Shown here: positions 9,495-55,420 of the stretch, in pieces | Layout of the letters: each line of letters opens with the position of its first letter | How positions within the stretch are numbered: position 1 is the stretch's first letter | Assembly: GCF_039908645.1 (NCBI RefSeq) | Contig: NZ_CP150917.1 | Coordinates: 4,661,501-4,725,500 of the forward strand | Reading direction: 5' to 3' | From: Pseudomonas helvetica | Lineage (GTDB): Bacteria; Pseudomonadota; Gammaproteobacteria; Pseudomonadales; Pseudomonadaceae | Length of the DNA: 64,000 bases | Notes under the pieces: model-generated | The model's database searches: none | What the model was told of the DNA's origin: nothing | What the model saw: the letters and a program-made list of their open reading frames with translations, nothing else | Position numbers and translations under genes: made by a program

Positions 9495-10196
9495 TCAGAG
9501 ATTCACCACGTTCACAAAACGCGACGCAGCGGTTTCGTCGATACGCAGGTTGGTGAAGTCGAACAGGTTACGGTCCGCCAACTGCGACGGAATGACGTTC
9601 TGCAAACCACGGAAAATGCTTTCGGTACGGCCCGGCGTCTTGCGCTCCCACTCCTGAAGCATTTCCTTGACCACCTGACGCTGCAGGTTTTCCTGGGAGC
9701 CGCAGAGGTTGCACGGGATGATCGGGAACTGCTTGAAGTCCGAGTAAGCCTGAATGTCTTTCTCGTTACAGTAGGCCAATGGGCGGATCACTACGTTACG
9801 GCCGTCGTCGGCACGCAACTTCGGCGGCATGGCCTTGAGCGAGCCGTTGTAGAACATGTTCAGGAAAAACGTCTCGACGATGTCGTCGCGGTGATGACCG
9901 AGGGCCATTTTGGTCGCGCCGATTTCGTCGGCGAAGGTGTAGAGCGTGCCGCGACGCAGGCGCGAGCACAACGAGCAAGTGGTCTTGCCTTCTGGCACCA
10001 GTTCCTTGACCACCGAGTAGGTGTCCTTTTCGACGATGTGGTATTCCACACCCAGCTCTTTCAGATAAGCCGGCAGCACATGCTCAGGGAAACCCGGCTG
10101 CTTCTGGTCCATGTTCACCGCGACGATCTCGAACTTGATCGGCGCCACCTTCTGCAGGTGCATCAGCACGTCGAGCATGGTGTAGCTGTCTTTTCC
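9495..10196 (-). pseudogene. ttcA: ttcA 3' fragment (codons from the PP-loop to the end), split by the island
   Basis: This is the C-terminal ~84% of the native tRNA 2-thiocytidine synthetase. The frame reads [13 protein letters not shown] from 10196 downward and ends at 9495. It keeps the two Cys pairs that bind the Fe-S cluster ([10 protein letters not shown] and [12 protein letters not shown]). The codon directly before it is TAA, contributed by the island, and the first half of the ATP-binding motif is gone, so this piece cannot be active alone even if translated from the internal ATG at 10178. The missing 44 codons are at 55286-55420. Joining the two at the AAA (Lys) codon restores a complete SGGKDS motif and frame. 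Confidence 0.96.
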
Positions 10197-10200
10197 TTAT
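10187..10200. other. Left island junction (attL-like)
   Basis: On the minus strand the island reads TATAAGG and then AAAAGACAGC of ttcA. The AAA at 10191-10193 is the Lys codon of the SGGKDS motif and is also present at the right junction (55292-55294). The GG before it (10195-10196) is shared too, at matching offset, so the common core is GGNAAA. No longer direct repeat was seen. Confidence 0.85.
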
Positions 10201-10360
10201 AGCTCAAGGATATCCTAGAAAACAGTACACTCATGCTCGTAACCCTATAATTTTACTATGTTTTACGAATAAGATTATTTACAAAAAAAATCGATAATGT
10301 AAATTTCATGGTTTCGCAAGTTCCAGAACCTCCCTTTCCTCAAAAAAAGACGTTGAACCT

Positions 10361-11254
10361 TTACAAAACCTGGACGACATCTATCCAGTTTTCAACGCGG
10401 GAAGAAGAAACCGTTGCGTCATCAAACTTATAGGGTGGCCGGTCTTCCGATCTGTCAATAGACAGATTTACGAAGTCGAACAGACTGCGATCGGCCATCT
10501 GGGAAGGGTTTACGCTTTGTAAGCTGTGAAAAATATTTTCCACGCACCCGGGATTTACCGAGTCCCACTCCGCAATCATCGATTTAATTTTTTTCCTTTG
10601 GAGATTCTCTTGTGAGCCGCAGAGATTACATGGAATGATCGGATACGCACTATCAGCAGCGACCTTCGCTACATCTTTTTCTCGGCAATAGGCGAGCGGC
10701 CGAATAACGATATTCCTCTTATCGTCACTGAGAAGTTTAGGCGGCATCCCTTTCATCTGCGCTTGGAAAAACATGTTGAGAAATAAGGTCTCAACCATAT
10801 CATCCATATGATGTCCAAGCGCCAATTTAGTAGCCCCTATTCCCTCGGCAAAACTATAAAGCGTACCCCTTCTGAGTCTTGAACAAAGAGAGCAGGTTGT
10901 TTTACCCTCAGGAATCTTTTGCTTGACGACTGAATAAGTATCTTTGTCAATTATATAATAATCAATCCCTTTACTCTCAAAAAACTCAGGCAAAATATGC
11001 TCAGGAAACCCAGGTTGCTTCTGATCAAGATTTACGGCTACAACGCTAAATTTTATGTGCGCAACGCGCTGGAGGTGTAGCAGCGCATCCAGCATTACAA
11101 ATGAATCTTTGCCACCACTTACGCACACCATAACTTTATCGCCGTCGTCGATCATTGCGTAATCTACAACAGCCTTTCCGACATTACCACGCAGCTTTTT
11201 ACGACGAAGCTCTGCCGCCTTATTTAATTGAGCTGTACTTTCATCTATCATCAT
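10361..11254 (-). CDS. ttcA: Complete island-borne TtcA (second tRNA 2-thiocytidine synthetase)
   Basis: A 297-aa full-length TtcA homologue that would thiolate C32 of certain tRNAs. The PP-loop VSGGKDSF is at about residues 45-52. Both CxxC motifs ([22 protein letters not shown]) are intact, as are the [10 protein letters not shown] and VIRPLAYC blocks. It is clearly divergent from the interrupted copy (for example [13 protein letters not shown] against [14 protein letters not shown]) and AT-richer, and has a ~20-residue C-terminal extension ending in [11 protein letters not shown]. It therefore looks like an imported orthologue rather than a duplicate of the local gene. It lies in the same orientation as ttcA and starts about 1 kb inside the junction. 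I infer that it compensates for the insertional loss. Confidence 0.93.
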
Positions 11255-11710
11255 AGCTTTAAGCTCCTACCAATAACTTAGAAGTTTAGAAATAACCCCA
11301 ATGAAAAAAACACGCCACCTAAAACATCCACATTCTTGCAACGAGTTCAGATAGCTAATTAACGCAAAAACAAAGAACAGAAAGCCCATAACAAATAACA
11401 TACATTAACACAGACACTTCACATCTTATCTAGACGCTTAAAACTCGAAAATGAGATAAAGCGAACGATATCTGACTTGGCTGCATCATAACAAGATTGT
11501 GTCTACGTTTTAAGTGCACCCTGACCAACGATCGTTTTCAGCTTCGCTAGGGCGCCTCAGTGATTGACTACATCGCGGAGTACTGCTGGTGACCAGGGTT
11601 GATTGGCCTCAAAGACACTCATGGCGACAGATCATCCTCTACCATTTGGGACGGCAGCAGACGCCATCAGTGCAGCTGGGATCATCAAGCGCACGTAACG
11701 TCGTTGGTGA
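11255..11710. other. AT-rich intergenic region upstream of the island ttcA
   Basis: About 450 bp without a convincing gene. It should contain the promoter of the island ttcA (reading left). I see no clear inverted repeat, RNA gene or mobile-element end before the IS3 remnant begins near 11711. Confidence 0.5.
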
Positions 11711-11811
11711 TTGCAGCGTTATCGGGACTGTGATTGGGCGCTGTCGAACAAGCCGGATGCGGATCTGGTCATCAAGGCGTTGGACATGGCTTACGAACAG
11801 TGTGGCAAGCC
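11711..11811 (+). pseudogene. Remnant of an IS3-family transposase (OrfB)
   Basis: The frame reads RDCDWALSNKPDADLVIKAL followed by a DMAYEQCGKP-like tail. This is the catalytic-core style of IS3-family OrfB, where it is normally followed by a HSDQGSQY block. Here the homology stops at GKP and joins unrelated sequence, so only about 30 codons survive. Confidence 0.7.
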
Positions 11812-12150
11812 TCATCTGCCGAGAAAAGGATTAGTCCATATCGTCAATGAGCTCGCGTGTCGCGGCTTGTGTGATCCGCTTTTACCGGGTACGGACGATA
11901 GCGATGACCTGATCCGTGCCTTTCGGCTGAAAATAGGCCAAGCAGCGGATACTGTCCGTCGAGTAACGACTGATCGACAACTGATCATCTTGCTCGACGC
12001 GATCGATAACGCCGGCGAACAGGCGAAAGACCGAGGCGAACCGTCTTTTCCAGAACTGCTGCTTGCAAGCATAAGTCACGGCGGTGCGCTCACGGGAGTA
12101 CAACTAGTCGTTAGTTCGCGCACTCATCGACGCGTAGCTGCGACCGGGGG
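11812..12150 (+). pseudogene. Fragment of a STAND/NACHT-like NTPase
   Basis: In frame with the IS3 scrap follows about 110 residues with LLDAIDNAGEQA and GVQLVVSSRTHRR. The first looks like a Walker B strand (hydrophobic strand ending in D) and the second like the sensor-1/Arg strand of STAND ATPases such as NACHT or Avs-type proteins. No Walker A segment or sensor repeats remain; sequence after about 12150 becomes transposase-like. It is a relic, probably of an antiphage or signalling NTPase. The family call is by motif only. Confidence 0.45.
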
Positions 12151-12179
12151 GAGCTGCATGCGAAAAGTTCGAGTAAAAG

Positions 12180-14774: not shown

Positions 14775-15710
14775 GTGAAAACAATCTTGCGAATCGCCAC
14801 CGCTCTTAGTTTGGCGGCACTCTCCTGCGGTGCATCCGCCGCTACAACTAGCTGTGACACATCGCATTCCATGAGCATTCAACTGCTCGGTTCTGGTGGC
14901 CCAATCTCTGACGACGCTCGTGCATCATCGGGGGAGATAGTCTGGATTGATGGAAAGTCGCGACTGCTCATTGACGCTGGCGGTGGTACGTACCTGCGCT
15001 TTGGCCAGGCGCATGCCCGATTGGAAGACCTGAACTTCATCGGCATTTCGCATTTCCACACAGACCATAGCGTCGACTTACCCGCCATCTTGAAGGGCGC
15101 GTATTTTATGGCCTCGGGTCACACAACCGCACTGGTCGGTCCGGATGGATCTGACTCATTCCCGAGCATGACGGAATTCTTCCATGACACGTTTGCTGCC
15201 AAAACGGGCTCGTTTGCCTATCTCGAGGGTCTGCATGATGGTAGTGATGGGCTGAATCTAAAGATCAGCCCGATTATCAACGTGGATCGCCACGCCGAGA
15301 AAGCCTCCCTCGTCTATCAAGACGCCGAGGTTAAGGTTTATGCGTACGGCATTCCGCACGGTGATGTGCCGACCTTGGCATTTCGCATCGAAGGCAAGTG
15401 CGGCACGATCGTGATCTCCGCGGATCAGAACGGCAGCCGTGCCGGGTTCGTCGACTTTGCCAAGGGCGCTGACATTTTGGTTATGCCAGCTGCCATCGAT
15501 GACGATGCCGACGACACCTCTAAATTCCTCCATGCAACACCCACGGTCGTTGGCAAGATTGCCGCAGCCGTCAATCCCAAAATGCTCATCCTCAATCACT
15601 TCATGGGTAAGTCTTTGAAGAATAAGGATAGCAACGTCGAAATTATCAAACGCTACTACCACGGCCCGGTTTACGCAGGTCGTGATCTGTCGCGCTTCGA
15701 AATGCCATGA
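14775..15710 (+). CDS. Secreted MBL-fold metallohydrolase, first gene of the RiPP operon
   Basis: A 311-aa protein. Signal peptide residues 1-22 (MKTILRIATALSLAALSCGA...), then a metallo-beta-lactamase fold with the metal motif HFHTDH at 93-98, a later His in GIPHGDVP, Asp in VISADQNG, and His in LILNHFMGK. These supply a full dinuclear site. The gene ends 14 nt before the precursor peptide gene and leads the operon. Such a periplasmic MBL protein is not among the usual BufABCD/HvfABC set, so its role (processing, thiol or metal handling) is unknown. Start ATG 14775 is preceded only by a weak ribosome site. Confidence 0.85.
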   Translation: MKTILRIATALSLAALSCGASAATTSCDTSHSMSIQLLGSGGPISDDARASSGEIVWIDGKSRLLIDAGGGTYLRFGQAHARLEDLNFIGISHFHTDHSVDLPAILKGAYFMASGHTTALVGPDGSDSFPSMTEFFHDTFAAKTGSFAYLEGLHDGSDGLNLKISPIINVDRHAEKASLVYQDAEVKVYAYGIPHGDVPTLAFRIEGKCGTIVISADQNGSRAGFVDFAKGADILVMPAAIDDDADDTSKFLHATPTVVGKIAAAVNPKMLILNHFMGKSLKNKDSNVEIIKRYYHGPVYAGRDLSRFEMP

Positions 15711-15724
15711 CTCAGGAGCATCCA

Positions 15725-16027
15725 ATGAAACACACCTTCGCACTATCCATCGCCGTAGCTTCGCTCGCCTCGCTCGCCGTCATCAGCCAGCCGGCTCACG
15801 CCGGTGAAACCCCACCACCGGCCACTGCCAAGACCACCACGGGTGGTGGCAAGTGTGCCAGCGGTAAGTGCGGCACCGAGAAGATCTACGGCCAGGCCAA
15901 ACTCAGTCAGGACCCACAGGGTCGCTTGGTCCGCACACGTGACGGTAAATGTGGCCTGACCGCTGAGGGTTACGACATCGCCGAAACGACCCAGAAGAAG
16001 CTCTCCGAAGGGGTTTGTGGCCAATGA
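15725..16027 (+). CDS. Bufferin/HvfA-type RiPP precursor
   Basis: A 100-aa secreted peptide. Signal residues 1-26 end in SQPAHA, then a Thr/Pro/Gly linker. Four Cys lie in the contexts GGKCAS, SGKCGT, DGKCGLT and EGVCGQ. These EGKCG-like motifs are those modified by MNIO (DUF692) enzymes in the bufferin and HvfA families to copper-binding heterocycles. It overlaps the MNIO gene through ATGA. Known family role: periplasmic copper sequestration. Which Cys are modified here cannot be told from sequence. Confidence 0.82.
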   Translation: MKHTFALSIAVASLASLAVISQPAHAGETPPPATAKTTTGGGKCASGKCGTEKIYGQAKLSQDPQGRLVRTRDGKCGLTAEGYDIAETTQKKLSEGVCGQ

Positions 16028-16857
16028 TCATCCAAGGACGAGGGCTTGGGCTCCGACGTGAGTTTGCCTCGTCTCTCGCCAACGGCCCCATCCGGAATGA
16101 CTTCGACTTTTTGGAAGTCGTACCCGACAACTGGATGGGGTTGGGTGGAGAGAGCATGGAACAACTCGACGCCATCGCGGATAAATATCCAATGGTTGCA
16201 CACAGCTTGAGCCTGTCCATCGGCGACGCACAACCGCTGGATATGAATTACTTGAGCGCAGTGAAGACCTTCCTGGACAACTACGACATTGCGATCTATA
16301 GCGATCACGTCAGCATGTCACGCGATAGCCGCGGCTACCTTTACGAGCTGATTCCGGTAAGTCGCACGCAGGCCAGCCTGCAGCTGATGGTCGATAAGAT
16401 CAAGGCAGTGCAGGATTACCTGTCCCGGCGTATCGCGCTGGAGAACATCTCCTACTACTACGATGAGGAGGGGCAGATGGCCGAGACCGAATTCATCGCT
16501 CGGCTGATCGACGCCTCAAGCTGCGGACTGCTATTGGATGTCAACAATGCGTATGTGAACTCGCGCAATCACGGATTCGATCCGCACGCATTCATAGATG
16601 CATTACCAACGGATGCGGTGACTTACTTTCACGTTGCCGGCCATCTGGATAATGGTCCTCAAGAGCGGGTCCTGGATACCCATGGAACCGACGTTTCGGT
16701 CGCCGTGCTTAATCTGGGTGCCTATGCGGTTCATCGGTTCGGTGAGCAGCCCATTGTGCTGGAGCGCGACAACAATATACCCAGCCTTGACGAGCTATGT
16801 GAGGAACTGCGCGGCATCCATGAGGCCATGACCGGCTCGACCGGGAAACTGCAATGA
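16024..16857 (+). CDS. MNIO (DUF692) RiPP-modifying enzyme, BufB/HvfB-like
   Basis: A 277-aa TIM-barrel multinuclear non-haem iron oxidative enzyme. Motifs: GLGLRREF at the N-terminus, PDNWMG, ALENISYYY, LLLDVNNAYVNSRNHGFDP, FHVAGH and DTHGTDVS, which carry the His/Asp/Glu/Asn iron ligands of DUF692. It oxidises Cys residues of the adjacent precursor. The start ATG 16024 overlaps the precursor stop, and its end overlaps the DUF2063 gene by 4 nt, so the three are coupled. Confidence 0.9.
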   Translation: MIIQGRGLGLRREFASSLANGPIRNDFDFLEVVPDNWMGLGGESMEQLDAIADKYPMVAHSLSLSIGDAQPLDMNYLSAVKTFLDNYDIAIYSDHVSMSRDSRGYLYELIPVSRTQASLQLMVDKIKAVQDYLSRRIALENISYYYDEEGQMAETEFIARLIDASSCGLLLDVNNAYVNSRNHGFDPHAFIDALPTDAVTYFHVAGHLDNGPQERVLDTHGTDVSVAVLNLGAYAVHRFGEQPIVLERDNNIPSLDELCEELRGIHEAMTGSTGKLQ

Positions 16858-17513
16858 ACGTTCGCATCGCACCAGAGGTCACCAGCGAAGCAGAGCGTCG
16901 GTGTCAGGCCGTTCGCCGCGGTGATCTCGGCCCGTATGGAGAGTTGGTCCGGGTGAACGCGCAAGAGCTAGTCACCACGATGTTCCCACGGTTTACCCAA
17001 CATCGCGGTGCCGAGCGCCTGCGCCAGGATATCGACGCATTTTACAAATGCTTTGGCGCAACGCGGGCCGAATTCATTCACCTTGCGACCGAGTTTGTCC
17101 GCTTCATGCAGCCGCGCCTGCCGCCAGGTATCGGGCGGCCCCTTATCGAGTACGAATGGATGCTGTTTGACGTAGAGGTCGATAAGACCCCAGTCCCCTA
17201 TCCCGATGGACAGGAGGCGCGTCGCCCAACCCATGTTTACCTCAACCCCACCGTGCGATGGCTGGCCACTCCCTTTGATCTGCATACGGACGACCAACAT
17301 GCGGCGCAGGCACTGCTAAACCACGATGCGCCTTATGCCTATGCCATCTTTCGCACATTCGACCATAGGGTCATGACGCGAAGGCTTTCAAATCACGACA
17401 TCGCAGAACTGTCCTCCTTCACAGACGGCGAGCGGCTCATATCGCCACAAGAGTCAGCACACTGGTTCACCCACGCGCTTGCGCACGAACTCATTACTTC
17501 ACACCACGAATAG
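16854..17513 (+). CDS. DUF2063-type RiPP partner protein, BufC/HvfC-like
   Basis: A 219-aa soluble protein that partners the MNIO enzyme. It is not membrane-bound and has no signal. Its position (ATGA overlap with the MNIO gene) and length fit the DUF2063 partner that binds the precursor and helps present it. Its own sequence is divergent: the usual N-terminal DUF2063 block is only weakly apparent, and the C-terminal half (DHRVMTRRLSNHDIAELSSF) resembles an HTH-like fold seen in HvfC. Assigned mainly by context. Confidence 0.75.
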   Translation: MNVRIAPEVTSEAERRCQAVRRGDLGPYGELVRVNAQELVTTMFPRFTQHRGAERLRQDIDAFYKCFGATRAEFIHLATEFVRFMQPRLPPGIGRPLIEYEWMLFDVEVDKTPVPYPDGQEARRPTHVYLNPTVRWLATPFDLHTDDQHAAQALLNHDAPYAYAIFRTFDHRVMTRRLSNHDIAELSSFTDGERLISPQESAHWFTHALAHELITSHHE

Positions 17514-17525
17514 TAAGGCATCACC

Positions 17526-18116
17526 ATGGCTAAACTGATCGCACTTCTGAATCGCGGCCTCGAAAAGTCCAAAAAGTTGGATTTCGTAGCGCTCCTTTCC
17601 ATCCGTTTGTATCTGCTGCCGACCCTCTACGAGGGCGCCCACGCCAAAGTTACCGGCTTCAGTGGACTGGTCGAGTGGTTCGCCACTCCAGCGGCTCAAG
17701 GCGGTCTCGGCATGCCTTTGCCCACGCTGATGGCCACGCTTGCTACGGGAACCGAAGTAGCAGGACTGATCTGCATTGCCCTGGGTCTGTTCACCCGCAT
17801 CGTCACTATCCCATTGGCGATATTGATGACCGTCGCCGGTCTGGCTGTCCATTGGTCCCACGGCTGGGCCGCGATTGCCGACAAATCCACCGAAGCCAGT
17901 ATGCGGCTCAGTGGTCTCATGACTTGGCTGCAACAATCCTTTCCGGGCCGCTTCAACTATGTAACGGAATTGGGTGACCCAATAATCCTCAACAACGGCA
18001 TCGAATTCACGGTGACCTACGCCATCATGATTATGGTGCTGTTCTTCTATGGCGCAGGTCGCTATGTCAGCGCAGACCATTGGCTGGCCAAGATCTTCCC
18101 GCGCTGGCCGAAGTGA
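17526..18116 (+). CDS. DoxX-family membrane protein, BufD/HvfX-like
   Basis: A 196-aa protein with four hydrophobic helices. RLYLLPTLYEGAHAK (DoxX helix 1 with the family Arg) is at about 27-41, then helices around GTEVAGLICIALGLF, IVTIPLAILMTVAGLAVHW and TYAIMIMVLFFYGAG. DoxX proteins are the usual last gene of bufferin/Hvf operons. Predicted role: membrane redox partner for the copper peptide pathway. It lies 12 nt after the DUF2063 gene and is followed by a terminator at 18257. Confidence 0.85.
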   Translation: MAKLIALLNRGLEKSKKLDFVALLSIRLYLLPTLYEGAHAKVTGFSGLVEWFATPAAQGGLGMPLPTLMATLATGTEVAGLICIALGLFTRIVTIPLAILMTVAGLAVHWSHGWAAIADKSTEASMRLSGLMTWLQQSFPGRFNYVTELGDPIILNNGIEFTVTYAIMIMVLFFYGAGRYVSADHWLAKIFPRWPK

Positions 18117-20738: not shown

Positions 20739-20758
20739 ATCCAGTATCAGAATGTTGG

Positions 20759-39774: not shown

Positions 39775-39975
39775 TCAAACAGTCGCTTTCTTCGCAGCGC
39801 TTTCGCAACCGAGTAAGGCGACGTCACGCCGTTGCGCCCGTTCGTACGTCTGCTCTCGCTTGAGCATCTGGTATTTGGACCCCTCCGACCAATTCCTCAT
39901 TGCCTTGCTGGACAGCCAGGCGATTGTGCAGGCAAAGACGATCAACGTCATGGTGATGACCATAAAAGCGAACAT
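39775..39975 (-). CDS. Small single-helix protein of the oxidase operon (CcoQ-like)
   Basis: A 66-aa protein, MFAFMVITMTLIVFACTIAW as membrane helix, then a basic polar tail. Position after the cytochrome subunit (4 nt gap) and size match CcoQ-type accessory subunits. No sequence signature; assigned by place. Confidence 0.6.
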   Translation of the reverse strand: MFAFMVITMTLIVFACTIAWLSSKAMRNWSEGSKYQMLKREQTYERAQRRDVALLGCESAAKKATV

Positions 39976-39978
39976 GGG

Positions 39979-41241: not shown

Positions 41242-41244
41242 GGA

Positions 41245-42693: not shown

Positions 42694-43181
42694 TTAATTT
42701 CTTCTCGTGCATGACTCAATATCCAGGCGGCCACGCCCAGTTGTGCATCGGGTGTCAGAGCAATGGCTGAAGGTCCCGGGGTGTATCCGTCCCATCCCGG
42801 ACGCGGGTGGCTAATGGCGGTATTCATCAGCGCCAAGGCATCGGCACCCATGGGATCTGCGCCAACATGTTGCTGGTAGCGCGCCACAATCGCTTGCCAG
42901 GACGGCCCTTCCAGACGTTGCTGCGCGTCATGACAACCGGCACAACGCTGGCGAACCACCACTTTGCCGGTTTGGATCAGGGCAGACGCTCGGCCCTGGT
43001 CGAACGTCGTCCCTTGGGGCACGCCGGGCAAGTTGTCGCCACGCGGGCTAATGGTCGAACTCGCGGGCATGCGCACCACGCTCCAGGCAATAACGGTACC
43101 CAGACTCAACACGCCGACCAGCATGACCAGCGCCGCGCGTGAGATGCTCGAATGTCTGGCGTTTGTTTCAACATCACTCAT
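42690..43181 (-). CDS. Membrane-anchored mono-haem cytochrome c
   Basis: A 163-aa protein with an N-terminal helix (AALVMLVGVLSLGTVIAWSV), a haem c motif RCAGCHDAQQ near residue 78-82 and a C-terminal helix-rich segment (LGVAAWILSH). Sits between the sulfite dehydrogenase cytochrome and the oxidase and overlaps both by 4 nt, so a shuttle between the two is likely. Confidence 0.83.
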   Translation of the reverse strand: MSDVETNARHSSISRAALVMLVGVLSLGTVIAWSVVRMPASSTISPRGDNLPGVPQGTTFDQGRASALIQTGKVVVRQRCAGCHDAQQRLEGPSWQAIVARYQQHVGADPMGADALALMNTAISHPRPGWDGYTPGPSAIALTPDAQLGVAAWILSHAREEIK

Positions 43182-43519
43182 GGCGCGGGCTTACCTTGCA
43201 GGAACATCAGGTAATCGAGGATCGGCTCAACCGCCGCATCGGGAATCGGCGCGCCGTACTCGTCGCGCATCTTCGCCACTTCGGCCGCCCAGGTTTTGCG
43301 GGGGTAGGTAGGCTGAATGACGACGTAGCGTGGCGAATGACAAATCACGCATTGCTGAAGAAATTCTGCACGTCCCGGCCCGTCCAGCAGGTACGGCTCG
43401 TTGTGCGGCACGGTGATGCTGTGTACCGCCTGGCCGAAATTCACATCCGGCGACTCTTGCGCGTGGAGCGTCGGACTGAGTGCGCATGCCAATAGGCACG
43501 GCAGATAATCGCGGGCCAT
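43178..43519 (-). CDS. SorB-like cytochrome c subunit of sulfite dehydrogenase
   Basis: A 113-aa secreted protein, signal to about residue 20 (ACALSPTLHA), then the haem c site QCVICHSPRYV and a PTYPRKTWAAEVAKM block typical of SorB. It starts 1 nt after the SorA stop. Takes electrons from the molybdenum subunit. Confidence 0.85.
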   Translation of the reverse strand: MARDYLPCLLACALSPTLHAQESPDVNFGQAVHSITVPHNEPYLLDGPGRAEFLQQCVICHSPRYVVIQPTYPRKTWAAEVAKMRDEYGAPIPDAAVEPILDYLMFLQGKPAP

Positions 43520-43520
43520 G

Positions 43521-44747
43521 TCAGACCACCATTCCGCTGGTGCTCTCGATCATGCGACGCGCAAAGCCGCCACGATTCCACTGCGTGACCGGTTGCCCCT
43601 CGCCTGCGCGATTGGTCGCGCGAACCAGAAAGGTGTAACGACCCTTCTCGCGTGGCGTCCAAAGGTAACGCCAGCGCCGCCAGGAAAAGCGCCCGATCTC
43701 AGGATCCAGTAGTGCGTCGACCCAAGTGCGGCCGTTGTCCAACGACACCTCGACGCGGGCTATGCCGTCGCCGCCGTCATTGGCCAATCCTTCGAGCATC
43801 ATCGGATGATTGAGCAACAACTGCTCTTCTGGCTCGGGACGCACGAAAATCGAATGGGTAGCAAAGCGATTGATCGGAACGGTTTTCTTCGCCAGATTGC
43901 CCGGCTCTTCGTTGATTTCCGGGTTATCGGGAATGCGGTAGGCCACATCCATCCAGATATTGCTCAAAGGCTTTTCGAGCACCTCGATGTGTGCCAGCGA
44001 TTTGATCCAGTACGTCGCGTACCAGCCCGGCACCACTAGGCGTAGCGGGAAGCCGTTGAGCATAGGTAACGGCTCACCATTCATGGCGTAAGCGATCATC
44101 ACGTCACCGTCGACGGAATGATCGAACTTCAACGATTTGACTACTTTGGGCAGCCCTGGCATGGGCGACTCGTCCAGCCCGGAAAACGCCACTTCCACTG
44201 CCCCGGATTTGACCCCGGCACGCGCCAGCACATCTTTGAGCCGTACGCCTGTCCATTGCGCATTACCCATCGCGCCGAATTGCCATTGGCTGCCAGGCGG
44301 TTGCGGACTGAACAAACTACGTGCGTTACCGGAGCATTGATTCATCGCCACCAACGTGACCGGATCGAAACCCTTGACCAGTTCTTCGAGAGTGAACGAT
44401 TGCGGTTTGTCGACAAGGCCGTCGAGACGTAAACGGAAGGTTCGCGTATCTACTTCAGTCGGGTAACCAGACAAGTGCCAGCGCACAAAATGTGCCGAAT
44501 TTGGCGTCAGATCCTGACGAAAGAAATGCAGCGGGGTTTCCAGTTGCGGCGGTCGATCGGTGATCAGAATCATCCCGGTCTTTTCCGGGTAGCGCACCTG
44601 TTCCCTCGATGCAGTCTGGCCTGCAATGGCCGAGTCCGGCGAGCCCGAAAGCGCCTGCCTGGGCAGAAGGCCAACCAAACCGGCTCCGGTTGCAAGTCCG
44701 AGCAAGCGCCTGCGGTTGATTTTCAAAAAAGTGTCGTCTGTATTCAT
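43521..44747 (-). CDS. SorA-like sulfite dehydrogenase, molybdenum subunit
   Basis: A 408-aa periplasmic molybdoenzyme of the sulfite oxidase family. Tat-like signal with NRRRLLGLATGAGL. The Mo-ligand Cys is in MNQCSGNARSLF. PMLNGFPLRLVVPGWYATYWIK is the substrate/cofactor block, and a C-terminal dimerisation domain follows (LDNGRTW, VTQWNRGG). Known reaction: sulfite to sulfate, with electrons to cytochrome c. First gene of the operon sorA-sorB-cytc-ccoN-ccoOP-small. Confidence 0.92.
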   Translation of the reverse strand: MNTDDTFLKINRRRLLGLATGAGLVGLLPRQALSGSPDSAIAGQTASREQVRYPEKTGMILITDRPPQLETPLHFFRQDLTPNSAHFVRWHLSGYPTEVDTRTFRLRLDGLVDKPQSFTLEELVKGFDPVTLVAMNQCSGNARSLFSPQPPGSQWQFGAMGNAQWTGVRLKDVLARAGVKSGAVEVAFSGLDESPMPGLPKVVKSLKFDHSVDGDVMIAYAMNGEPLPMLNGFPLRLVVPGWYATYWIKSLAHIEVLEKPLSNIWMDVAYRIPDNPEINEEPGNLAKKTVPINRFATHSIFVRPEPEEQLLLNHPMMLEGLANDGGDGIARVEVSLDNGRTWVDALLDPEIGRFSWRRWRYLWTPREKGRYTFLVRATNRAGEGQPVTQWNRGGFARRMIESTSGMVV

Positions 44748-47171: not shown

Positions 47172-48572
47172 TCAATACACGCTCAGAAGCTGAGTTCGGT
47201 AGTGCTGTGAAAAGTTGAGTTCATACAATGCAGGCTCAGATGAGCCGAGAATCGAAATTGCGTGATCGCTCCCCATTCGGGAAAAGGCTCCGCCCATTGA
47301 ACCTCCTAAAATGGAGATCTCAATGCCGCTAGGATCTTCTGGATGGTCGTTAATCTGGTCGTCGCACTCAAACTGCGAAGCTCGTACGACACTCAATACG
47401 GCATGATCATCGGGCAAATCATCGGCCAAACGCTCCGAGTACTGCTGGAGCGCTGGTTCCGCGAGAACATATAGCCAAGCTTTTCCATCCGCATCACTTG
47501 AGCGCCTAAGAATTCTGCCCAAGACCTGGCGATAGTGCAGTTCGGTACGTATACGACTTAGATGACAGCAAACCTGCAGCCTCGGTATGTCCGTCCCCTC
47601 GCTGATCATGCCAACCGCAATAATCCAAGTGCAGCCACCATGTCGATAATCATTGATGACCTGCTGCGCGTTTGGCGTCTTATTGGTCACGACCTGACAA
47701 ACCTCCCCCTGAGCACGCATAAGGTCAGCTATGCGGTGAGCGTGCTCAATGTTTGTCGCAACCACCAGCCCCCCGGCTTCCGGATGTCGTTCACGGATTT
47801 CGCGAAGCTTTGTGCACCCTAAAAACAGAATCTGCCGCAGGATATCGTCATGAAAAAGCAGATCTTCATAAGACACGGGTGACTCAGAAAGTAGCCTGGC
47901 AATACTCGGATACGTCGTGACGGTGCCTTCTGTGGATAGCGTTTCAGTTAATCTCACCATGTTGTTATCCAATACGACGATACGCGGTGACCGACATACG
48001 CCGTCAGCGATTGCCTCCTGCAGGCCATATCGGTAATCACAGATCAGCACCCCGTCTGGTTGAGAATATCGAGCAAGCGCTATTGCCTTCTGGTCAGACC
48101 TCCAGGGTGTCCCCGAGAGCGCAAGAGTGAAGGTGGCGCGATCTTGAATCCTTTGCACAATCTGCTGACCCCATGCATTGCTTAACAGCAAGTCATGGCC
48201 GGCGCAGTGATGGATTTCATCGAAAACTGCGAACACCCTATAGTCGTCGAACAGCTTCCAGAACGCTGCGTCTCGATATTCCATCCCTTGATACGTGCAA
48301 ACAGCTCCGACGGCACCTATCAATCCATCCAGGCGCTTCCCTAGAGCGGCGGAGAATGTTCTCTGAAATCCATCCATTGTTTGCCGTGACGGAGCAAAGC
48401 AGAGAATCAGATCTATCTTATCTTGCTGAAGCAATTGCCTGGCCAACTCCGCTGCCATTTTCGTCTTGCCAGCACCGGGAGTTGCTTGGCAAAAAAAATG
48501 AGGTTGCTGGGTGAAGTGCTGCATAGCCAACGTAATGCAGTCGTGCTGCCATACCCTGAGAGTGGAGTTCAT
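47172..48572 (-). CDS. DEAD/DEAH-type superfamily 2 helicase
   Basis: A 466-aa SF2 helicase/translocase. Motif I is QATPGAGKT, motif II FDEIHH, motif III SGTPWR, and motif VI RQVLGRILRRS. Motif V-like GMISEGTDIPRL precedes it. No nuclease, methylase or zinc domain is fused. Its ATG overlaps the stop of the 195-aa partner by 4 nt, so both are produced together. Location by a recombinase operon with an XRE regulator suggests a defence or element-maintenance role. Such helicases act on DNA or RNA; the target is unknown. Confidence 0.88.
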   Translation of the reverse strand: MNSTLRVWQHDCITLAMQHFTQQPHFFCQATPGAGKTKMAAELARQLLQQDKIDLILCFAPSRQTMDGFQRTFSAALGKRLDGLIGAVGAVCTYQGMEYRDAAFWKLFDDYRVFAVFDEIHHCAGHDLLLSNAWGQQIVQRIQDRATFTLALSGTPWRSDQKAIALARYSQPDGVLICDYRYGLQEAIADGVCRSPRIVVLDNNMVRLTETLSTEGTVTTYPSIARLLSESPVSYEDLLFHDDILRQILFLGCTKLREIRERHPEAGGLVVATNIEHAHRIADLMRAQGEVCQVVTNKTPNAQQVINDYRHGGCTWIIAVGMISEGTDIPRLQVCCHLSRIRTELHYRQVLGRILRRSSDADGKAWLYVLAEPALQQYSERLADDLPDDHAVLSVVRASQFECDDQINDHPEDPSGIEISILGGSMGGAFSRMGSDHAISILGSSEPALYELNFSQHYRTQLLSVY

Positions 48573-49156
48573 GTGGCAGAAATCGCCTTAAGCGTATTCT
48601 CGATTGCACGAACGTGACCAAGTAGCTTTGAACTCCTGTCACGGACTTCTATATATACCCCTTCAAGACGCCCCTTCAGATGTGGGATCTCCTCAAACAA
48701 CTGCTTGTAGCGCTCGGTCTCGCCCAAGGATGAGAGCAGATCAAGCCGGGTCTCCTTCAGCATCACTTGAAGGCGGGCTTGGTCGTCTTGCTCTTCCCTT
48801 GGGTTAGACGAAGGGCATGGTCTTTCTCTTCCCTCATCTGCGAGAACATCCAGCGAATCGACGCTCTTGGAGAAGTTCCCATCTACCAGTACGAGCTGCA
48901 GCCGTTGCGGCATATCCAACAAACGAAACACTTGCCCCCGCTTCTGGCGCTGCTCTGCCGTCTCCGCCCAGCCAACGCGAACTAGCCTGCGGATTTGTTC
49001 ATAAACATAGACGCGCACATCCGCGAGCCGAAAGCTTGAGGGAGGAAGGAGAGCTGCATACGCGTCTCTCAACTGGCGGGTCGTGAATTCCTCAGAAAAA
49101 TGCTCGCAAAGCAGAGAATGGAGCTGCCTGTCGAATTCGAATAAATCTTGTTTCAT
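48569..49156 (-). CDS. Helicase-partner protein (winged-helix plus coiled coil)
   Basis: A 195-aa protein. The N-terminal ~80 residues (EFTTRQLRDAYAALLPPSS, VYVYEQIRRLVRVGW) resemble a winged-helix fold with a basic second half. After a Pro/Asp/Glu-rich linker, residues 125-190 are a charged helix (RLQVMLKETRLDLLSSLGE, LEGVYIEVRDRSSKLLG) likely to form a coiled coil. No enzymatic motif. Coupled 4-nt overlap with the helicase. No family recognised. Confidence 0.7.
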   Translation of the reverse strand: MKQDLFEFDRQLHSLLCEHFSEEFTTRQLRDAYAALLPPSSFRLADVRVYVYEQIRRLVRVGWAETAEQRQKRGQVFRLLDMPQRLQLVLVDGNFSKSVDSLDVLADEGRERPCPSSNPREEQDDQARLQVMLKETRLDLLSSLGETERYKQLFEEIPHLKGRLEGVYIEVRDRSSKLLGHVRAIENTLKAISAT

Positions 49157-49535: not shown

Positions 49536-49955
49536 CTAGGACTTCTTAAACACTTGTATTTCCTCAGGCCTCTTCTTAACTAAAGCATAGAGATCTAGAT
49601 TTGGAATATCATTCGCGTTCAAAAGCATTCTTTCAATCATTCGTAATTGCTCCGCATTATTTTTTTTCAGCACCTCAACCTCAGCCTTTAAGTGCTCTAT
49701 CTGTTTATCCAACTTCACATCAGAAGCCGTAATTTTTGTATAGAGCGAAGGTGATACACCTCGAAGTTGCGCTTTTTTGTTTTTGTACGATGTACTTATA
49801 CCCACATAAGTGCATAGAGTTTGTCTTGTAGTTTTTATTGCGAGTTCAAGCTCAACCTTTGTCACTAGCGCATCCCAAGTAAGCTTACCTTTCCACTTGA
49901 TCAGCATAATCTCTATCTTACGTTGCGCCTGGGCAGATATTTTTGGTTCCACCAC
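49536..49955 (-). CDS. Small HTH/coiled-coil protein of the recombinase operon (TnpC/GmtX-like)
   Basis: A 139-aa protein, last gene of the recombinase operon. The GTG start at 49955 follows a strong AAGGAGGT (49961-49968) that lies inside the upstream gene. N-terminal helical region (LTWDALVTKVELELAIKTTR, then TLCTYVGISTSYKNKKAQL) looks like a DNA-binding HTH; the C-terminal region (DKQIEHLKAEVEVLKKNN) is a coiled coil. Tn554 TnpC (about 125 aa) and GmtX have comparable size and position. It probably orients or stimulates integration. Confidence 0.72.
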   Translation of the reverse strand: MVEPKISAQAQRKIEIMLIKWKGKLTWDALVTKVELELAIKTTRQTLCTYVGISTSYKNKKAQLRGVSPSLYTKITASDVKLDKQIEHLKAEVEVLKKNNAEQLRMIERMLLNANDIPNLDLYALVKKRPEEIQVFKKS

Positions 49956-49956
49956 G

Positions 49957-52278
49957 TCATACCTCCTTATCAGACAGTCCGAAAGACGAAAAAAGAGAGC
50001 GTAGCTGAGGATTGGTATCTGCCGTAGCGTTCATACCTTCATCTTCAATCAAACTTTTCAGGCGTGCCTCAAAATTTGGGAGGGCACACGCAACCCTTTT
50101 TATGGCCATCGTATCTAAATCGATCAATTTGAATTCAGAGTCTTTGTTCGAGTAACGAATTGTCGTACCTGCGGAACAACTTCTCATCAAATCAATCAAC
50201 ATTGAAAGGACATGAACATTTCGAGAATGTATAACATACCATTTTTTCATTGCTTGAGATGAGGATAGACGAAGATCCTCTGCCACGGACTCTAGCCTCA
50301 CAACTTGAAACGATAGATCTTTCTCAAACAACTCTATAGCATTTACATCGCCGGCAATGTGACAAGTCTCTGGACATAGAAAGCACTGGGAGACGAAATC
50401 ATTCAAATAATTGCATGGAGTCACATTTAGATTTTGAGTACAAAGCCCCGTGGAAGTAAGCGACGCCGGTAGGTTTGTAGCTTTAGTAAGCTGCTCTTGA
50501 GAGACCACCCTAATATAACGATTGTCGATATCGGGCGGATTCATTATCGCACTCACCCGGCCTGCCTTCTCGTCGTCGCCCGTATGGATATAAGTATGAG
50601 TTTGCTCAGAATTTTTTCTACCAGACCAAGCAGTTATTATTTCTACCGGGATACGACTTAAATCCGCAAGGGTATTGGATAAGTGTCGCAAACTATGCGG
50701 GGACAGCGTTAAATCTGAGGAAAATCCGTAACTTTGAAAAATTGACCTTATGTTTCGATTAAGGCCAATTCGAGATGACACCGAGCTCCCTAGAGATGCG
50801 AGAGGTACTACTGAATACTTCGACTTTTGAAATATTTTCCCACCGGTGCCTCCTTTCGATGATTTCCCATAAAGCCAGCTTCCCAAGCAGCAAAACATTG
50901 CATTTTTTATATTGATACTTGACTCGCCGCTAGAAAATGAAAGTGGAAACTCTGGAAGAATATTTTCCTTGTAAAAAGAAATCCACCAATTTTGAACCTC
51001 TCCTACTGTGACAGTGATTTTATCGATAAATACCCTAGGCATATTAGAGTATCCGAATAATAGCGGTAGCGCGGACAAAGAGGCAGAATCAGTATATGAT
51101 ACAGATAACCGATCATCAGGTCGCAAAGACCAAATTTGTTTCATTTCAAAGCACTGACTTCTTTTAGTCCGGTTAATGGAAGTCAGATCAACACCTTCTT
51201 TCAGCACCGGAACGCATTGATTAATTCCATAAAATCCTAACGCATAACCCAACGTGAAAAGATTGGGTTGCTGGGTCAAAGACAAATTGTGCTTTAGTTC
51301 TGGCGCAACTTCGAACTCTCCGAGCAGTCGGCTCAAGCTTTGGTTAGGCTTTTCGTAATACCTACATAACACTCTTGCCGGTTCACATGCCTTAAAAAAG
51401 TAATTCGTAGCTTTCGTGATTGGTTCAGCTAGCGCCGAAAGCACATGATTTTTATTGTTCCTATATCCTTTGCTTCCAATCCAATCGAGATAGTAGACTG
51501 GTACCCCATCTCCTTCGGAGTGGCAGTTAAGCTTTTGTTTAGGAAGGAGCGGTATTTCCGCAGAAGTGCGATTAGGTGACGCCAGAGATAAGGTGGTAAA
51601 CGTAACAACCAAGGCATCATGCATTTTAATGCTCTCACCAGGGAGAAGCGATCCACATTCACCCACATGTTCAAACACACATGAGAATATATTGCCCAGA
51701 GCGAGAACTGTCGTGATATCCGGTAATTTCTCCAACGCGTGATCTAAAGAAGCATGCCCAGTTCTATCTCTATTATCACTTCCCTTTAAGTCAATTTTTC
51801 GCATTACTCCCTTCCTAGTGCAAAAATCAAAAAACGGGCGTAGACGGTCGGCAGATCTTATTCCTAAATTAAGTTCTCGAATTGTAGACTCTGATTGGGT
51901 ATAGAGATCCCCCACCATAAATGACAATAGCTTTCTAGCTGCGGACGTTTGAGCTTTTTTTTCGCTGGCAGATAAATGCGTATTTGCCACTTCGATTATC
52001 CACACTTTTATCAGATGACTATAGGGGTAAGGAAGCGCATCTGTGGGTAGGTTACCGGCGTTACCCTTTCCCTTACGCCCATGTACTCCGCAAAGATACC
52101 TAGTTCGGCGTCCGGTATTAGGGTCAATGTGGTACCAAATCAGATCATCAAATATTGCATTACCACCAGGCCCTTCAAATTGTTTTAGTTCGGTGTCACG
52201 ATATGAATCGATTAACGACTCTAATCGATCAAAGTACTTGTTAATCTTCAATTGCGCTCTGCCTTGGAAGGTTTTCAT
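49957..52278 (-). CDS. Large tyrosine recombinase (third of three)
   Basis: A 773-aa integrase-like protein. Possible first Arg is in ASPNRTSAEIPLL. The second block is PHSLRHLSNTLADLSR (H-x-L-R-H), then WSGRKNSEQTHTYIHT with Trp and the nucleophile Tyr in THTYIHT. A C-terminal Cys cluster (QCFLCPETCHIAGD) may bind zinc. Long N-terminal region (1-350) with no known fold. The frame start at 52278 overlaps the upstream gene by 38 nt. Architecture similar to Gamma-Mobile-Trio GmtZ or Tn554 TnpB; which one cannot be decided without profiles. Confidence 0.83.
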   Translation of the reverse strand: MKTFQGRAQLKINKYFDRLESLIDSYRDTELKQFEGPGGNAIFDDLIWYHIDPNTGRRTRYLCGVHGRKGKGNAGNLPTDALPYPYSHLIKVWIIEVANTHLSASEKKAQTSAARKLLSFMVGDLYTQSESTIRELNLGIRSADRLRPFFDFCTRKGVMRKIDLKGSDNRDRTGHASLDHALEKLPDITTVLALGNIFSCVFEHVGECGSLLPGESIKMHDALVVTFTTLSLASPNRTSAEIPLLPKQKLNCHSEGDGVPVYYLDWIGSKGYRNNKNHVLSALAEPITKATNYFFKACEPARVLCRYYEKPNQSLSRLLGEFEVAPELKHNLSLTQQPNLFTLGYALGFYGINQCVPVLKEGVDLTSINRTKRSQCFEMKQIWSLRPDDRLSVSYTDSASLSALPLLFGYSNMPRVFIDKITVTVGEVQNWWISFYKENILPEFPLSFSSGESSINIKNAMFCCLGSWLYGKSSKGGTGGKIFQKSKYSVVPLASLGSSVSSRIGLNRNIRSIFQSYGFSSDLTLSPHSLRHLSNTLADLSRIPVEIITAWSGRKNSEQTHTYIHTGDDEKAGRVSAIMNPPDIDNRYIRVVSQEQLTKATNLPASLTSTGLCTQNLNVTPCNYLNDFVSQCFLCPETCHIAGDVNAIELFEKDLSFQVVRLESVAEDLRLSSSQAMKKWYVIHSRNVHVLSMLIDLMRSCSAGTTIRYSNKDSEFKLIDLDTMAIKRVACALPNFEARLKSLIEDEGMNATADTNPQLRSLFSSFGLSDKEV

Positions 52279-53893
52279 CGCAAACGGCTATTGTCAGTTT
52301 AACCCAAGCAATTTGTCGCTCCAATTTTTCAATGCTTCGGGCGTGAAGAGGATTGATTAAGGAACTGAGATTTACCGCAAGCTTATTCTCCGCGAGCTCT
52401 AACACCGACCTGTGATCAGCCTCAAGTATTGGGCGAAAATTTGGGCACCCATAGCACCCCAATGGTCTCCCCATTATTGTTGAGCAAGTAGTACATGAAC
52501 GCTTGTTTCTAGGGTTGCCAATAGGATTGAATTGATTGTCAAATATAGTTTCGTCATCTGCCGAACCTACCGTTACATTACTGCTGAATGCCTTCTTCAG
52601 AAACTCATTGCCGATATATTTGGAGTCAATTTCCCGCCTGGATTTGTAGTCCAAGTCTATATAGTGCCTTGCAGCTGGCACAGTAACACCGGTTATTTTT
52701 GCCAACTGAGCAGCGGACAAACCATCTTGAGCGCCACGAGTTAATACGGTATGACGAATCCTATTGGAAGTGACCATGCAATCTGCAGTTCGATCAGAGG
52801 TTACCGATACCCATCTCATTGCGTTCGTCACAGCCCCCTCCGAAACGTGGTAGGCCGTAGAACGTGATGTGAAAAGACTTTTCAAAAAATCGATAGACTT
52901 AAAACGTATTTCAAAAAGGCTAGTATGAGGAAACATAGGCATATCAGTCATTAAATTCAATAGCTCGGACTTGTCCACTTTGACTTCCAATGACTGCATT
53001 AACATCACGAGCCCTTCCAACATTACTCTCTTATATTCTATAAGCATTTTTGAAAGATCATCAGAAACATAGATAGGATAGCGCTCGGGACACTCCCTCG
53101 AGAAGCTCATTCCTGTAGACTTTGCAATGAATACTCTTAACTGCAATGCTTGTCCGCCCATAGCACCAATTTCATCCGCAGCACGAATCCCTGCATCATT
53201 AAAACTTGCACCTAAGGGAATCAAGTCGGACCATTTCAAAAGAGCAATTTGAATCGGCCTCCGTACAATCGAAAGCAATAATTTGTTAGTCACTAAATTT
53301 CTAAGGCGACCATAGAGCCTTGATGACTGATAAAAGAGAAGTTCTCGATCATCGTCCCATTTAAACTCTTGAAGGCCAAGATTAATTTCCTTAGCCAACG
53401 AATCAAACTCACTATCACTTAACGCCCCACTGGAAGAATCGAGTGCATTTACACGCAGTTTATCCAAGTGCGTGGAAGTAAACGAATGAAATCCCTTAAA
53501 CCTCTTATAGCCTTGTTTGGAGAGTGTTCCAAAAAATTGATTAAGCCCTTTCTTTTGGTTTGTTTTAAGCCCACTCCAAAGTGCCTTTATTCTGTCTAAC
53601 GAAGGAATTCCACCTGACATAAATGGCTTCACATTAGTATTTATGCCGGACGCTGTGCTGGCAGCCTTGGTTCGGACGTAATATACAAAAACATCCAAAA
53701 TCAAATTTTTTTCATCATCTGGCATACCCGATGAGTGTACCCATCCTACGTAAAGGTTATGTCCTTTTCCATTATTTGGGAGTATTACCCATACGTCATC
53801 TGCTGTATTTACCACCAGGCCAGATTTAGCCGTAACCAAACAAGCTTTTTGTTTGCTAGCTTTTGCTCCTTCCTGTTTTTTGTATCGAATCAT
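52241..53893 (-). CDS. Tyrosine recombinase with C-terminal Cys cluster (second of three)
   Basis: A 550-aa protein. Box I RRPIQIALLKWSDL, box II NRIRHTVLTRGAQ, HTH-like QLAKITGVTVPAARHYIDLD with the probable nucleophile Tyr in RHYIDLD. After this comes a Cys-rich knuckle (RSCTTCSTIMGRPLGCYGC) and a helical tail. Starts with ATG in a 4-nt overlap with the first recombinase stop. The catalytic triad looks complete, so all three recombinases may be active. Confidence 0.85.
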   Translation of the reverse strand: MIRYKKQEGAKASKQKACLVTAKSGLVVNTADDVWVILPNNGKGHNLYVGWVHSSGMPDDEKNLILDVFVYYVRTKAASTASGINTNVKPFMSGGIPSLDRIKALWSGLKTNQKKGLNQFFGTLSKQGYKRFKGFHSFTSTHLDKLRVNALDSSSGALSDSEFDSLAKEINLGLQEFKWDDDRELLFYQSSRLYGRLRNLVTNKLLLSIVRRPIQIALLKWSDLIPLGASFNDAGIRAADEIGAMGGQALQLRVFIAKSTGMSFSRECPERYPIYVSDDLSKMLIEYKRVMLEGLVMLMQSLEVKVDKSELLNLMTDMPMFPHTSLFEIRFKSIDFLKSLFTSRSTAYHVSEGAVTNAMRWVSVTSDRTADCMVTSNRIRHTVLTRGAQDGLSAAQLAKITGVTVPAARHYIDLDYKSRREIDSKYIGNEFLKKAFSSNVTVGSADDETIFDNQFNPIGNPRNKRSCTTCSTIMGRPLGCYGCPNFRPILEADHRSVLELAENKLAVNLSSLINPLHARSIEKLERQIAWVKLTIAVCDENLPRQSAIED

Positions 53894-55137
53894 TTTTTTT
53901 GATCTACTTTATGCTGGTGTGCTAGTGATAACTCCCTCGCTTTCAATGCAAGTCGCTTGTCATTATAAACATTATTCATGGTTGTATTTTGCGACCAACC
54001 CATAGCATATTTTCTAATATCCTCAAGAAGAACTGGATTGATGCCACGCCGCTCTCCCTTTTCATCGAATATTTCATTCCACTTGTGACGCAACATATGA
54101 GGATGCACACGAACCCCCAATGCTGTAGAAATTTTCTGAAAGATTGAATTGATTGATTTCAGAGAAAGCGGTTGACCCGCGGTACCTTTTGAATCATTTT
54201 CGCTGATAAGCAAAAAGTCATGATATTTAGCGCGAGGAAATATTGTACGAATGTGATTAATATAAAACTCAACTTCATGCATTACATTTTTTTTAACCGT
54301 AGCCAAGTGCGCTTTTGTTTTTTGATTGGGTTTTTCAGCGCGTGGATCTGTTGAATCGTTTCCAGACCTATAGATAGATATCTGATCGTAAGTACCATAG
54401 AAATTGAAATCTGAAATTTTTAACTTTCCCAACGCGCCTCTTCTGATGCCGCTTTGTACTAGCAAATTGACGATCAGATAATTTCTGACCCTTGATGCTT
54501 TGAATGGATTATTAGGAGAAGAAGGCATTATCAATTCGAGCAACTTCAGGAAAATCTCATCCGGAAGGACCGACTCCTCAGCACCACTTACTTGTTGGCT
54601 TCCATTTCTTCGAAGCCCTTCTTCATCCAGTTTAATTTTAGTAATCAGCTTAGCAAATTGTTCGCTTATTACTTCGTCAACCTCATGCACTTCGTGAAAC
54701 TGTTCAAATAGCCAGTCAAGAAAACACCTAAGACGCCTGACGCGACCTTGCAAAGTCTCGCTAGATACCTTTGCCATACCTTTCTGATTGGCGACTATGA
54801 TATTTCTCAGGTGCTTATCATTTACTCTAAAGTGCTTCACATTTGAAGCTGCATCAAATGCGCCTTTGTGCAAACAACAACTATCATAAAACTGCATATA
54901 CTCTTTCAGCGAAATAAACTTTCCCGATGCAACCCGTGCTGGCAAGTCGATATTCTTTTCTGAAAAGTACTGCAGCACGAACAACAGTTCATTTGCGTAT
55001 CTAAATCTCGTATTAGCCGACTTAGAAGACAACGGACCATTGAGATAACACGAAACATATGGATCGATAGGGCAATCCGCGTCATCCACTAGGGTCACGA
55101 ATGGCAACGAGTTGAATTGGTATCGCCTGAGCTTCAT
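53890..55137 (-). CDS. Tyrosine recombinase (first of three, nearest the right end)
   Basis: A 415-aa protein from ATG 55137 (MKLRRYQF); the longer frame starts with a TTG at 55203. A SAM-like N-terminal core-binding domain (FRYANELLFVLQYF) is followed by the catalytic domain: QSGIRRGALGKL (Arg I), KTKAHLATVKK (Lys strand), HPHMLRHKW (H-x-L-R), MGWSQNTTM and NNVYND (Tyr). It is a canonical integrase. It is about 150 bp from the right junction and reads inward. Confidence 0.9.
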   Translation of the reverse strand: MKLRRYQFNSLPFVTLVDDADCPIDPYVSCYLNGPLSSKSANTRFRYANELLFVLQYFSEKNIDLPARVASGKFISLKEYMQFYDSCCLHKGAFDAASNVKHFRVNDKHLRNIIVANQKGMAKVSSETLQGRVRRLRCFLDWLFEQFHEVHEVDEVISEQFAKLITKIKLDEEGLRRNGSQQVSGAEESVLPDEIFLKLLELIMPSSPNNPFKASRVRNYLIVNLLVQSGIRRGALGKLKISDFNFYGTYDQISIYRSGNDSTDPRAEKPNQKTKAHLATVKKNVMHEVEFYINHIRTIFPRAKYHDFLLISENDSKGTAGQPLSLKSINSIFQKISTALGVRVHPHMLRHKWNEIFDEKGERRGINPVLLEDIRKYAMGWSQNTTMNNVYNDKRLALKARELSLAHQHKVDQKK

Positions 55138-55285
55138 GATTGACAAAATAGTTAGTCCAATAACTAGTTCAGAAAAGACTAGTCTGGAAACGAGCTTTGT
55201 CAAACGAAAAGGATATATGAGTGTTACACAGCGGGGCTTAAAGAGACGGCTTCCAGCTTTCTTTGCTTTACAAAATATTTGTCGC

Positions 55286-55299
55286 TTATATTTTGCCGC
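55286..55299. other. Right island junction (attR-like)
   Basis: On the minus strand ttcA reads GGCGGCAAA and then the island ATATAAGCGAC. The AAA (55292-55294) is the same Lys codon found at the left end (10191-10193). The ATA-TAA that follows gives an immediate stop. Confidence 0.85.
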
Positions 55300-55420
55300 C
55301 GGACAGGCAGACCATGACCTTGTCGCCGTCTTCGATCATGTTGTAATCGGCGACGGCTTCACCGGCCTGTCGACGTAGACGTTTCTGCAGTTTGTTCTGG
55401 TTGACCGAAAGAGTGCCCAT
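55286..55420 (-). pseudogene. ttcA: ttcA 5' fragment (first 43 codons), split by the island
   Basis: [18 protein letters not shown]... to CLSGGK, then Ile and stop from the island. It is the natural TtcA N-terminus up to the second Gly and Lys of the PP-loop. The remaining 3' part is at 9495-10196. The peptide cannot function. ttcA promoter and start are intact, so transcription probably still enters the island's right end. Confidence 0.96.

Follow-up and report, generated by a model that had tools for sequence, protein, structure and literature searches.

A GInt element interrupts ttcA at its PP-loop codons in Pseudomonas helvetica and probably supplies a recoded replacement gene

Insertion of the element in the PP-loop codons of ttcA

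The window analysed here, a stretch of 64,000 nucleotides from Pseudomonas helvetica (assembly GCF_039908645.1, contig NZ_CP150917.1, positions 4,661,501–4,725,500), contains an element of 45,095 bp (10197–55291 of the window) that splits host ttcA at the Gly-Lys codons of the motif SGGKDS and carries a second, complete ttcA near its far end. The island is filed as a GInt on the strength of its ginABCD operon (49536–55203). We consider it probable, at roughly 0.78, that a GInt here splits ttcA at the PP-loop motif and pays for the damage with a recoded replacement ttcA.

The minus-strand frame of host ttcA opens at an ATG at 55420 and runs to CLSGGK, after which one Ile codon and a stop follow; the gene resumes with GKDSYT at 10196, in agreement with an earlier, sequence-only reading of this DNA. 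That reading had taken 9495–55420 as the span of the island. An insertion of about 45 kb in ttcA is borne out, but this span takes in both host parts of the gene, which flank the element proper on either side. The AAA and GG that it saw at both ends belong to hexamers alike at five of six bases, and the likeness does not extend into the three bases flanking the hexamer on each side. The junction features are as follows.

55292–55420, minus strand: 5′ part of host ttcA (43 codons, ending in CLSGGK), by frame reading and comparison
9495–10193, minus strand: 3′ part of host ttcA (KDSYT to stop), by frame reading and comparison
55292–55297, minus strand: attL core hexamer GGCAAA (Gly-Lys; K codon at 55294–55292), by junction comparison
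10191–10196, minus strand: attR core hexamer GGAAAA (Gly-Lys), by junction comparison
10361–11254, minus strand: spare ttcA carried by the element, complete at 297 aa; scores 438.6 bits as NCBIfam TtcA equivalog (cut-off 272)
10197–10360, minus strand: AT-rich element end between the spare ttcA and attR, 32% G+C

A search for other genomes with ttcA broken at the same codon, the check proposed along with the sequence-only reading, revealed 18 further genomes with an identical left junction. The contrary cases named there (an inversion, an assembly error, or an intact ttcA without the crossover bases) were not encountered: the assembly consists of a single contig of 6,437,446 bases, ttcA was uninterrupted in 37/37 other genomes searched (24 congeneric ones and 13 from other families within the order), and the insertion site read GGC AAR in all 24 intact same-genus genes.

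Crossover hexamer and target site

The hexamer GGNAAR, coding Gly-Lys, was present at all 34 ends (19 left and 15 far). Among the 12 Pseudomonas/Stutzerimonas elements, attL carried GGC AAR in every case, as do the 24 intact genes, and the attR hexamer differed at the Gly wobble base in 4/12. Should the scarless excision suggested in the sequence-only reading take place, the protein would not change, as either hexamer leaves Gly-Lys. The element arms beside the hexamer are near-inverted, with a mean of 4.7/6 matches over 15 elements.

An 18-base site containing the target, TCNGGNGGNAARGAYAGY, occurred once, inside ttcA, in 12/12 related Pseudomonas genomes and not at all in the present genome. 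In genomes of other families one match was found in 2/6, and a reversed control pattern of the site gave no match in 19 genomes. The site was kept in 24/24 intact Pseudomonas loci vs 0/15 element copies of ttcA. At locus L190 (G788:C16:234937-234954) it lies once on a contig other than that of ttcA, and a gene other than ttcA may offer a target there.

A complete ttcA at the far end of the element

The second ttcA, absent from the sequence-only reading as are the GInt identity of the island and a target wider than ttcA, lies 164 nt inside the far end. Far ends were recovered for 15 genomes, and a complete ttcA stands at this place in 15/15; a search of those 15 genomes at E up to 1e-4 gave no further complete ttcA. 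Its stop codon lies 164–168 nt away from the hexamer in 11 Pseudomonas/Stutzerimonas elements and 202–240 nt away in three others; in G405, the fifteenth, the pieces are spread over different contigs.

The element copies are only about 61–68% identical to host ttcA genes, and the present copy has 44% G+C vs about 60% in the host flanks. In the tree, which covers all but L117 and L125 (also missing from the codon counts below), the element copies from Pseudomonas, Stutzerimonas, Halothiobacillus and Vreelandella/Halomonas form one clade with support 100/100, and each broken host gene sits within its respective lineage, a minimum of 10 changes being forced. This single clade, together with the placement of the host genes, indicates that the spare ttcA belongs to the element. 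The PP-loop and the two cysteine motifs are kept in 15/15 element copies, and dN/dS was 0.045–0.086 in seven pairs of copies, which were chosen by hand and of which four have dS above or near 1. The kept motifs and the low dN/dS show the spare copy to be under purifying selection as a protein, and host function is probably retained through it.

gin operon and membership in the GInts

Four genes in the order ginABCD, encoding proteins of 437, 550, 773 and 139 aa, adjoin the 5′ part of ttcA.

53890–55203, minus strand: ginA, tyrosine recombinase; Pfam Phage_integrase, 45.4 bits (cut-off 27.1)
52241–53893, minus strand: ginB; NCBIfam site-specific integrase NF041502 at 81.4 bits, under the cut-off of 350, and alignment
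49957–52278, minus strand: ginC; kept across the clade, its profile retrieving other gin operons
49536–49955, minus strand: ginD, small protein, conserved in position

The open reading frame (ORF) of ginA as listed starts at TTG 55203, and the ATG at 55137 (MKLRRYQF) agrees with the consensus of relatives. GinC had no match in Pfam or NCBIfam, and GinD matched no family above any cut-off. The alignments contain GinB from 14 of 18 loci, GinA from 12, GinC from 9 and GinD from 11, GinC of L021, L023 and L024 having been excluded since the frame was not cleanly called.

GInts are described as having the gene order ginABCD and varied cargo (PMC5385486). They are defined further by two tyrosine recombinases (GinA and GinB), a divergent GinC and a small GinD, and their excision as a circle requires all four genes. 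The present element has the operon in order at one end, cargo that differs between this genome and G062, a short AT-rich 3′ end (the last 164 nt) and site-specific integration (19/19 left ends). With the published GInts (PMC10121019) it shares the operon at one end, cargo, the short AT-rich other end, strict site specificity and, by prediction, a 6-nt staggered exchange. It departs from published GInts in two respects, as far as the descriptions consulted extend: they integrate at the ends or starts of genes (ABC transporter, ssb, ribonucleotide reductase), whereas this element uses a catalytic motif in mid-gene, and unlike them it carries a complete copy of the gene that it breaks. The text of the published GInt description contains no occurrence of ttcA. 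Circles unaccompanied by an empty site have been detected for some GInts (PMC5385486). A phage origin was rejected: GinB gave no match among phage records and, among viral contigs, no relative that could be confirmed.

Distribution of the clade

Scanning named genomes for GinB yielded 17 loci, which with this genome and G062 make 19 genomes; at G405, only 10 element bases are left beside the left junction on its contig. All 19 left ends follow SGGK, and the window contains no tRNA gene, so that a tRNA gene as target is ruled out and the proposal of a site-specific recombinase system directed at conserved PP-loop coding DNA is upheld. The broad host range expected from such a target holds in part. 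The named hosts span several genera (Pseudomonas, Stutzerimonas, Vreelandella/Halomonas, Halothiobacillus, Marinobacter and Pseudohongiella), but all are Gammaproteobacteria and the element is rare: it was found in 5/398 same-genus genomes, and a class-wide search with a GinB profile detected it in 1/369 genomes of the class, namely this one. A GinC profile of the clade found relatives in 40/298 Pseudomonas genomes, five of them close.

Comparison with the element of G062 revealed 99.4% identity in two long blocks, with 79–82% in the neighbouring host DNA and with part of the cargo different. This excess of identity over that of the host DNA points to recent transfer between species.

Distant Pseudomonas GInts were sampled in 20 of the 35 genomes carrying them. 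All four genes lay in the same order in 19/20, the remaining one having ginA, a short ginB match and ginC, and no ttcA match was found in any of the 20. Seven are located at ssb, a published GInt site. Six (L163, L165–L168, L170) lie about 0.5 kb or less from dnaQ, near its 5′ end, the distance for L168 being approximate because its ginA start was guessed, and a seventh lies about 2 kb away; a dnaQ site is not mentioned in the consulted portion of the published GInt description.

Other PP-loop genes and plasmids as targets

To judge from the junctions outside canonical ttcA, the target is the DNA of the PP-loop motif rather than ttcA alone. The broken gene of Halothiobacillus encodes a divergent TtcA relative, its 3′ part being 31% identical to the element copy and reaching a TtcA score of 164.6 bits, under the cut-off of 272, which is set for the whole protein. 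On the P. aeruginosa megaplasmid NZ_CP129201.1 (L071, L186), an element of the clade follows the SGGK of a PAPS-reductase-like gene, with a gin operon (ginA and ginB matched only in pieces) and, at its other end, an element-type ttcA of 90% identity. A second P. aeruginosa megaplasmid, NZ_OR283034.1 (L187), which is typed as conjugative, shares this far-end junction and likewise bears an element-type ttcA (89%); GinB gave no match there. Both plasmid copies of ttcA lack the 18-base site. The 5′ part of the PAPS-reductase-like gene was found in 112 plasmid records and the 3′ part in 113, and the gene is uninterrupted, with the site, on pTTS12 of P. putida S12 (typed conjugative).

A docking site on plasmids would let the element move between cells, a route that comes into consideration because no conjugation gene was found among the 28 ORFs scanned with Pfam.

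Recoded motif and alternative explanations

The codons of the PP-loop motif distinguish element copies from host genes. In the codon test, which covered 12/15 element copies (Pseudomonas-type; G411–G413 left out) and from whose set of other ttcA genes L103 was left out, the first motif serine was AGY in 12/12 element copies vs TCN in 24/24 Pseudomonas and 31/31 other ttcA genes, and the second was TCN in 12/12 element copies vs AGY in 24/24 Pseudomonas genes. The other five shared serines showed no switch of codon class. These altered codons fit protection from self-insertion, with common descent or AT drift as alternatives.

The strongest competing account accepts the spare ttcA as a replacement and attributes its odd motif codons to AT-rich drift or to the donor, not to selection against self-insertion; we place it somewhat short of even odds. 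No single silent step leads from TCN to AGY; the two motif serines switched together and the five others did not; and TCN at the first serine is uniform over all the host genes compared. Each of these points counts against drift or donor origin. Several observations speak for that account and at the same time count against a motif recoded by selection. The copy is AT-rich beside its host flanks, and among 26 windows of six invariant codons the motif takes only second place in degree of change, behind an Arg-rich stretch. The element copies form one clade, so that the switches may represent one or few events. The second serine is TCN in 19/31 other gammaproteobacterial ttcA genes as well, leaving only the first switch unusual, and the shorter site TCNGGNGGNAARGAY is kept in 1/15 element copies (G411, which retains TCT).

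Beyond the codons, the following weighs against the main reading. The far end was not recovered in 4/19 genomes (G408, G409, G410, G414), so that the count of far-end copies covers the other 15; the bootstrap of the tree is rough and unsettled; and a promoter scan for the spare ttcA was near chance (4 found vs 2.8 expected). A free-standing ttcA, L103 (L132 3433–4311, G452), nests inside the element clade. No gin genes were found beside it on 12 kb of contig, and it perhaps represents the donor lineage, or a left-behind or domesticated copy; its neighbours include tilS- and accA-like genes. The imperfect direct repeats of 10–17 nt that flank published GInts are absent, the ends sharing only the 6-bp GGNAAR. 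We regard the hexamer-only repeat as a variant feature of a GInt, consistent with the 6-nt exchange described inside the published repeats.

An improbable alternative would make the second ttcA no replacement but mere cargo of the ordinary kind, or else a paralogue with a different role. The varied cargo reported for GInts (PMC5385486) and the low identity to host genes would suit it. Against it stand the occurrence of the gene at every far end found, in near-constant position, while the cargo between it and the gin genes varies; its score as a TtcA equivalog; and its being the sole complete ttcA found in those 15 genomes. Finally, a split gene and second copy produced by assembly error, inversion or host duplication deserve hardly any credence. 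Nothing was found in their favour; against them stand the single contig, the junction shared by 18 other genomes, the intact ttcA of all 37 relatives, and the tree, in which the second ttcA lies outside the host lineage and on which host duplication was rejected.

Proposed mechanism and comparison with known systems

In the proposed mechanism of splitting and replacement, GinABCD would act on the joined element ends, where arms near CTATAA and TTATA flank GGNAAR, and recombine them with a target GGNAAR within the TCNGGNGGNAARGAY of some PP-loop gene. That gene, as a rule ttcA, would be split by the insertion. Host TtcA should thereby be abolished, and the far-end ttcA of the element would take over. 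Its differently spelled motif would keep it from being a target itself, no full site being left in the genome after insertion. The six-base exchange would fall on the Gly-Lys codons, with variation only at wobble positions and the protein unchanged whichever hexamer stays. The sequences themselves show the target, the hexamer, the spare ttcA at all 15 far ends found, its single clade, the purifying selection, the codon changes and the recent interspecies transfer; what we infer is that the spare copy is expressed and rescues tRNA thiolation, and that self-protection and plasmid-borne spread take place. The extended scheme, in which PP-loop motif DNA serves as address, docking in a PP-loop gene of conjugative megaplasmids leads to new cells, chromosomal ttcA is broken on arrival, and the recoded, site-less ttcA restores thiolation and bars a second copy, has in our estimate an even chance of being correct as a whole.

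The separate parts of this arrangement have precedents. In the strand-biased circularizing integrative element (SE), the target hexamer is placed at attL and the donor hexamer at attR under a copy-out model (PMC10214605), and the hexamer pattern found here is compatible with that rule; the far-end hexamer may also record the previous host. By the account of that paper, the SE has different core proteins (intA-tfp-intB-srap) and is separated from GInts by sequence; the term ttcA is absent from its text (PMC10214605). Tn552-II of Staphylococcus aureus is likewise a recombinase element with a gene resembling its target gene, for which its authors suggested rescue, and with an att brought in from the donor; it differs in its recombinases and target (yolD-like), in being, in the text consulted, one element and not clade-wide, and in a target-like gene that still has att copies (PMC12486829). 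The Rac prophage of Escherichia coli also integrates in ttcA, but its site is near the N-terminus, where four residues are changed and a TtcA variant is left, and no second complete gene is described in the text consulted (PMC4632033). A different element, an insertion sequence, is reported in a TtcA gene of P. putida S12 (PMC5658596). Text matches to "ttca" in PMC12150760 and PMC7145413 were discarded as primer letters.

Searches of open-licence PMC papers yielded no report of a GInt in ttcA, nor of the combination of these parts. What appears new is a GInt that targets catalytic-motif DNA in mid-gene and brings a replacement gene along.

By using gene ends or tRNA genes, integrating elements often keep the damage small. 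The present clade interrupts a catalytic motif in the middle of a gene and seemingly compensates with a complete, site-less substitute. Exploitation of very conserved coding DNA, avoidance of self-targeting by synonymous change, and replacement of a tRNA-modification gene by an element-borne lineage in scattered hosts are thereby made testable.

Cargo and accessory genes

Between the spare ttcA and the gin operon lie the cargo and two accessory genes.

11255–47171, no strand assigned: cargo region, by Pfam scans of 20 chosen ORFs
47172–48572, minus strand: accessory DEAD-type helicase, 466 aa; Pfam ResIII and Helicase_C; whole in L009, L011, L017, L018 and the plasmid locus L071
48569–49156, minus strand: accessory ORF, 195 aa, paired with the helicase; whole in the same five loci

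The cargo comprises an MBL-fold protein, an MbnB/TglH/ChrH-DUF2063-DoxX cluster, a LysR regulator, a SLAC1 channel, cytochrome bd oxidase, chaperone-usher fimbriae, cation efflux, sensor kinases and an EAL protein, COX1 and cytochrome c proteins, and a molybdopterin oxidoreductase. At 14775–18116, genes for the MBL-fold protein, a small Cys-containing, secreted-looking peptide, the MbnB/TglH/ChrH enzyme, DUF2063 and DoxX together resemble a metal-binding peptide operon. The main stretch without a long match in the G062 element is 39793–44384, in place of which that element has about 7 kb of other DNA, suggestive of a recent cargo swap. The 195-aa ORF and the helicase (47172–49156) adjoin ginD together in several of the clade's elements and also on the plasmid, possibly as an accessory or defence pair.

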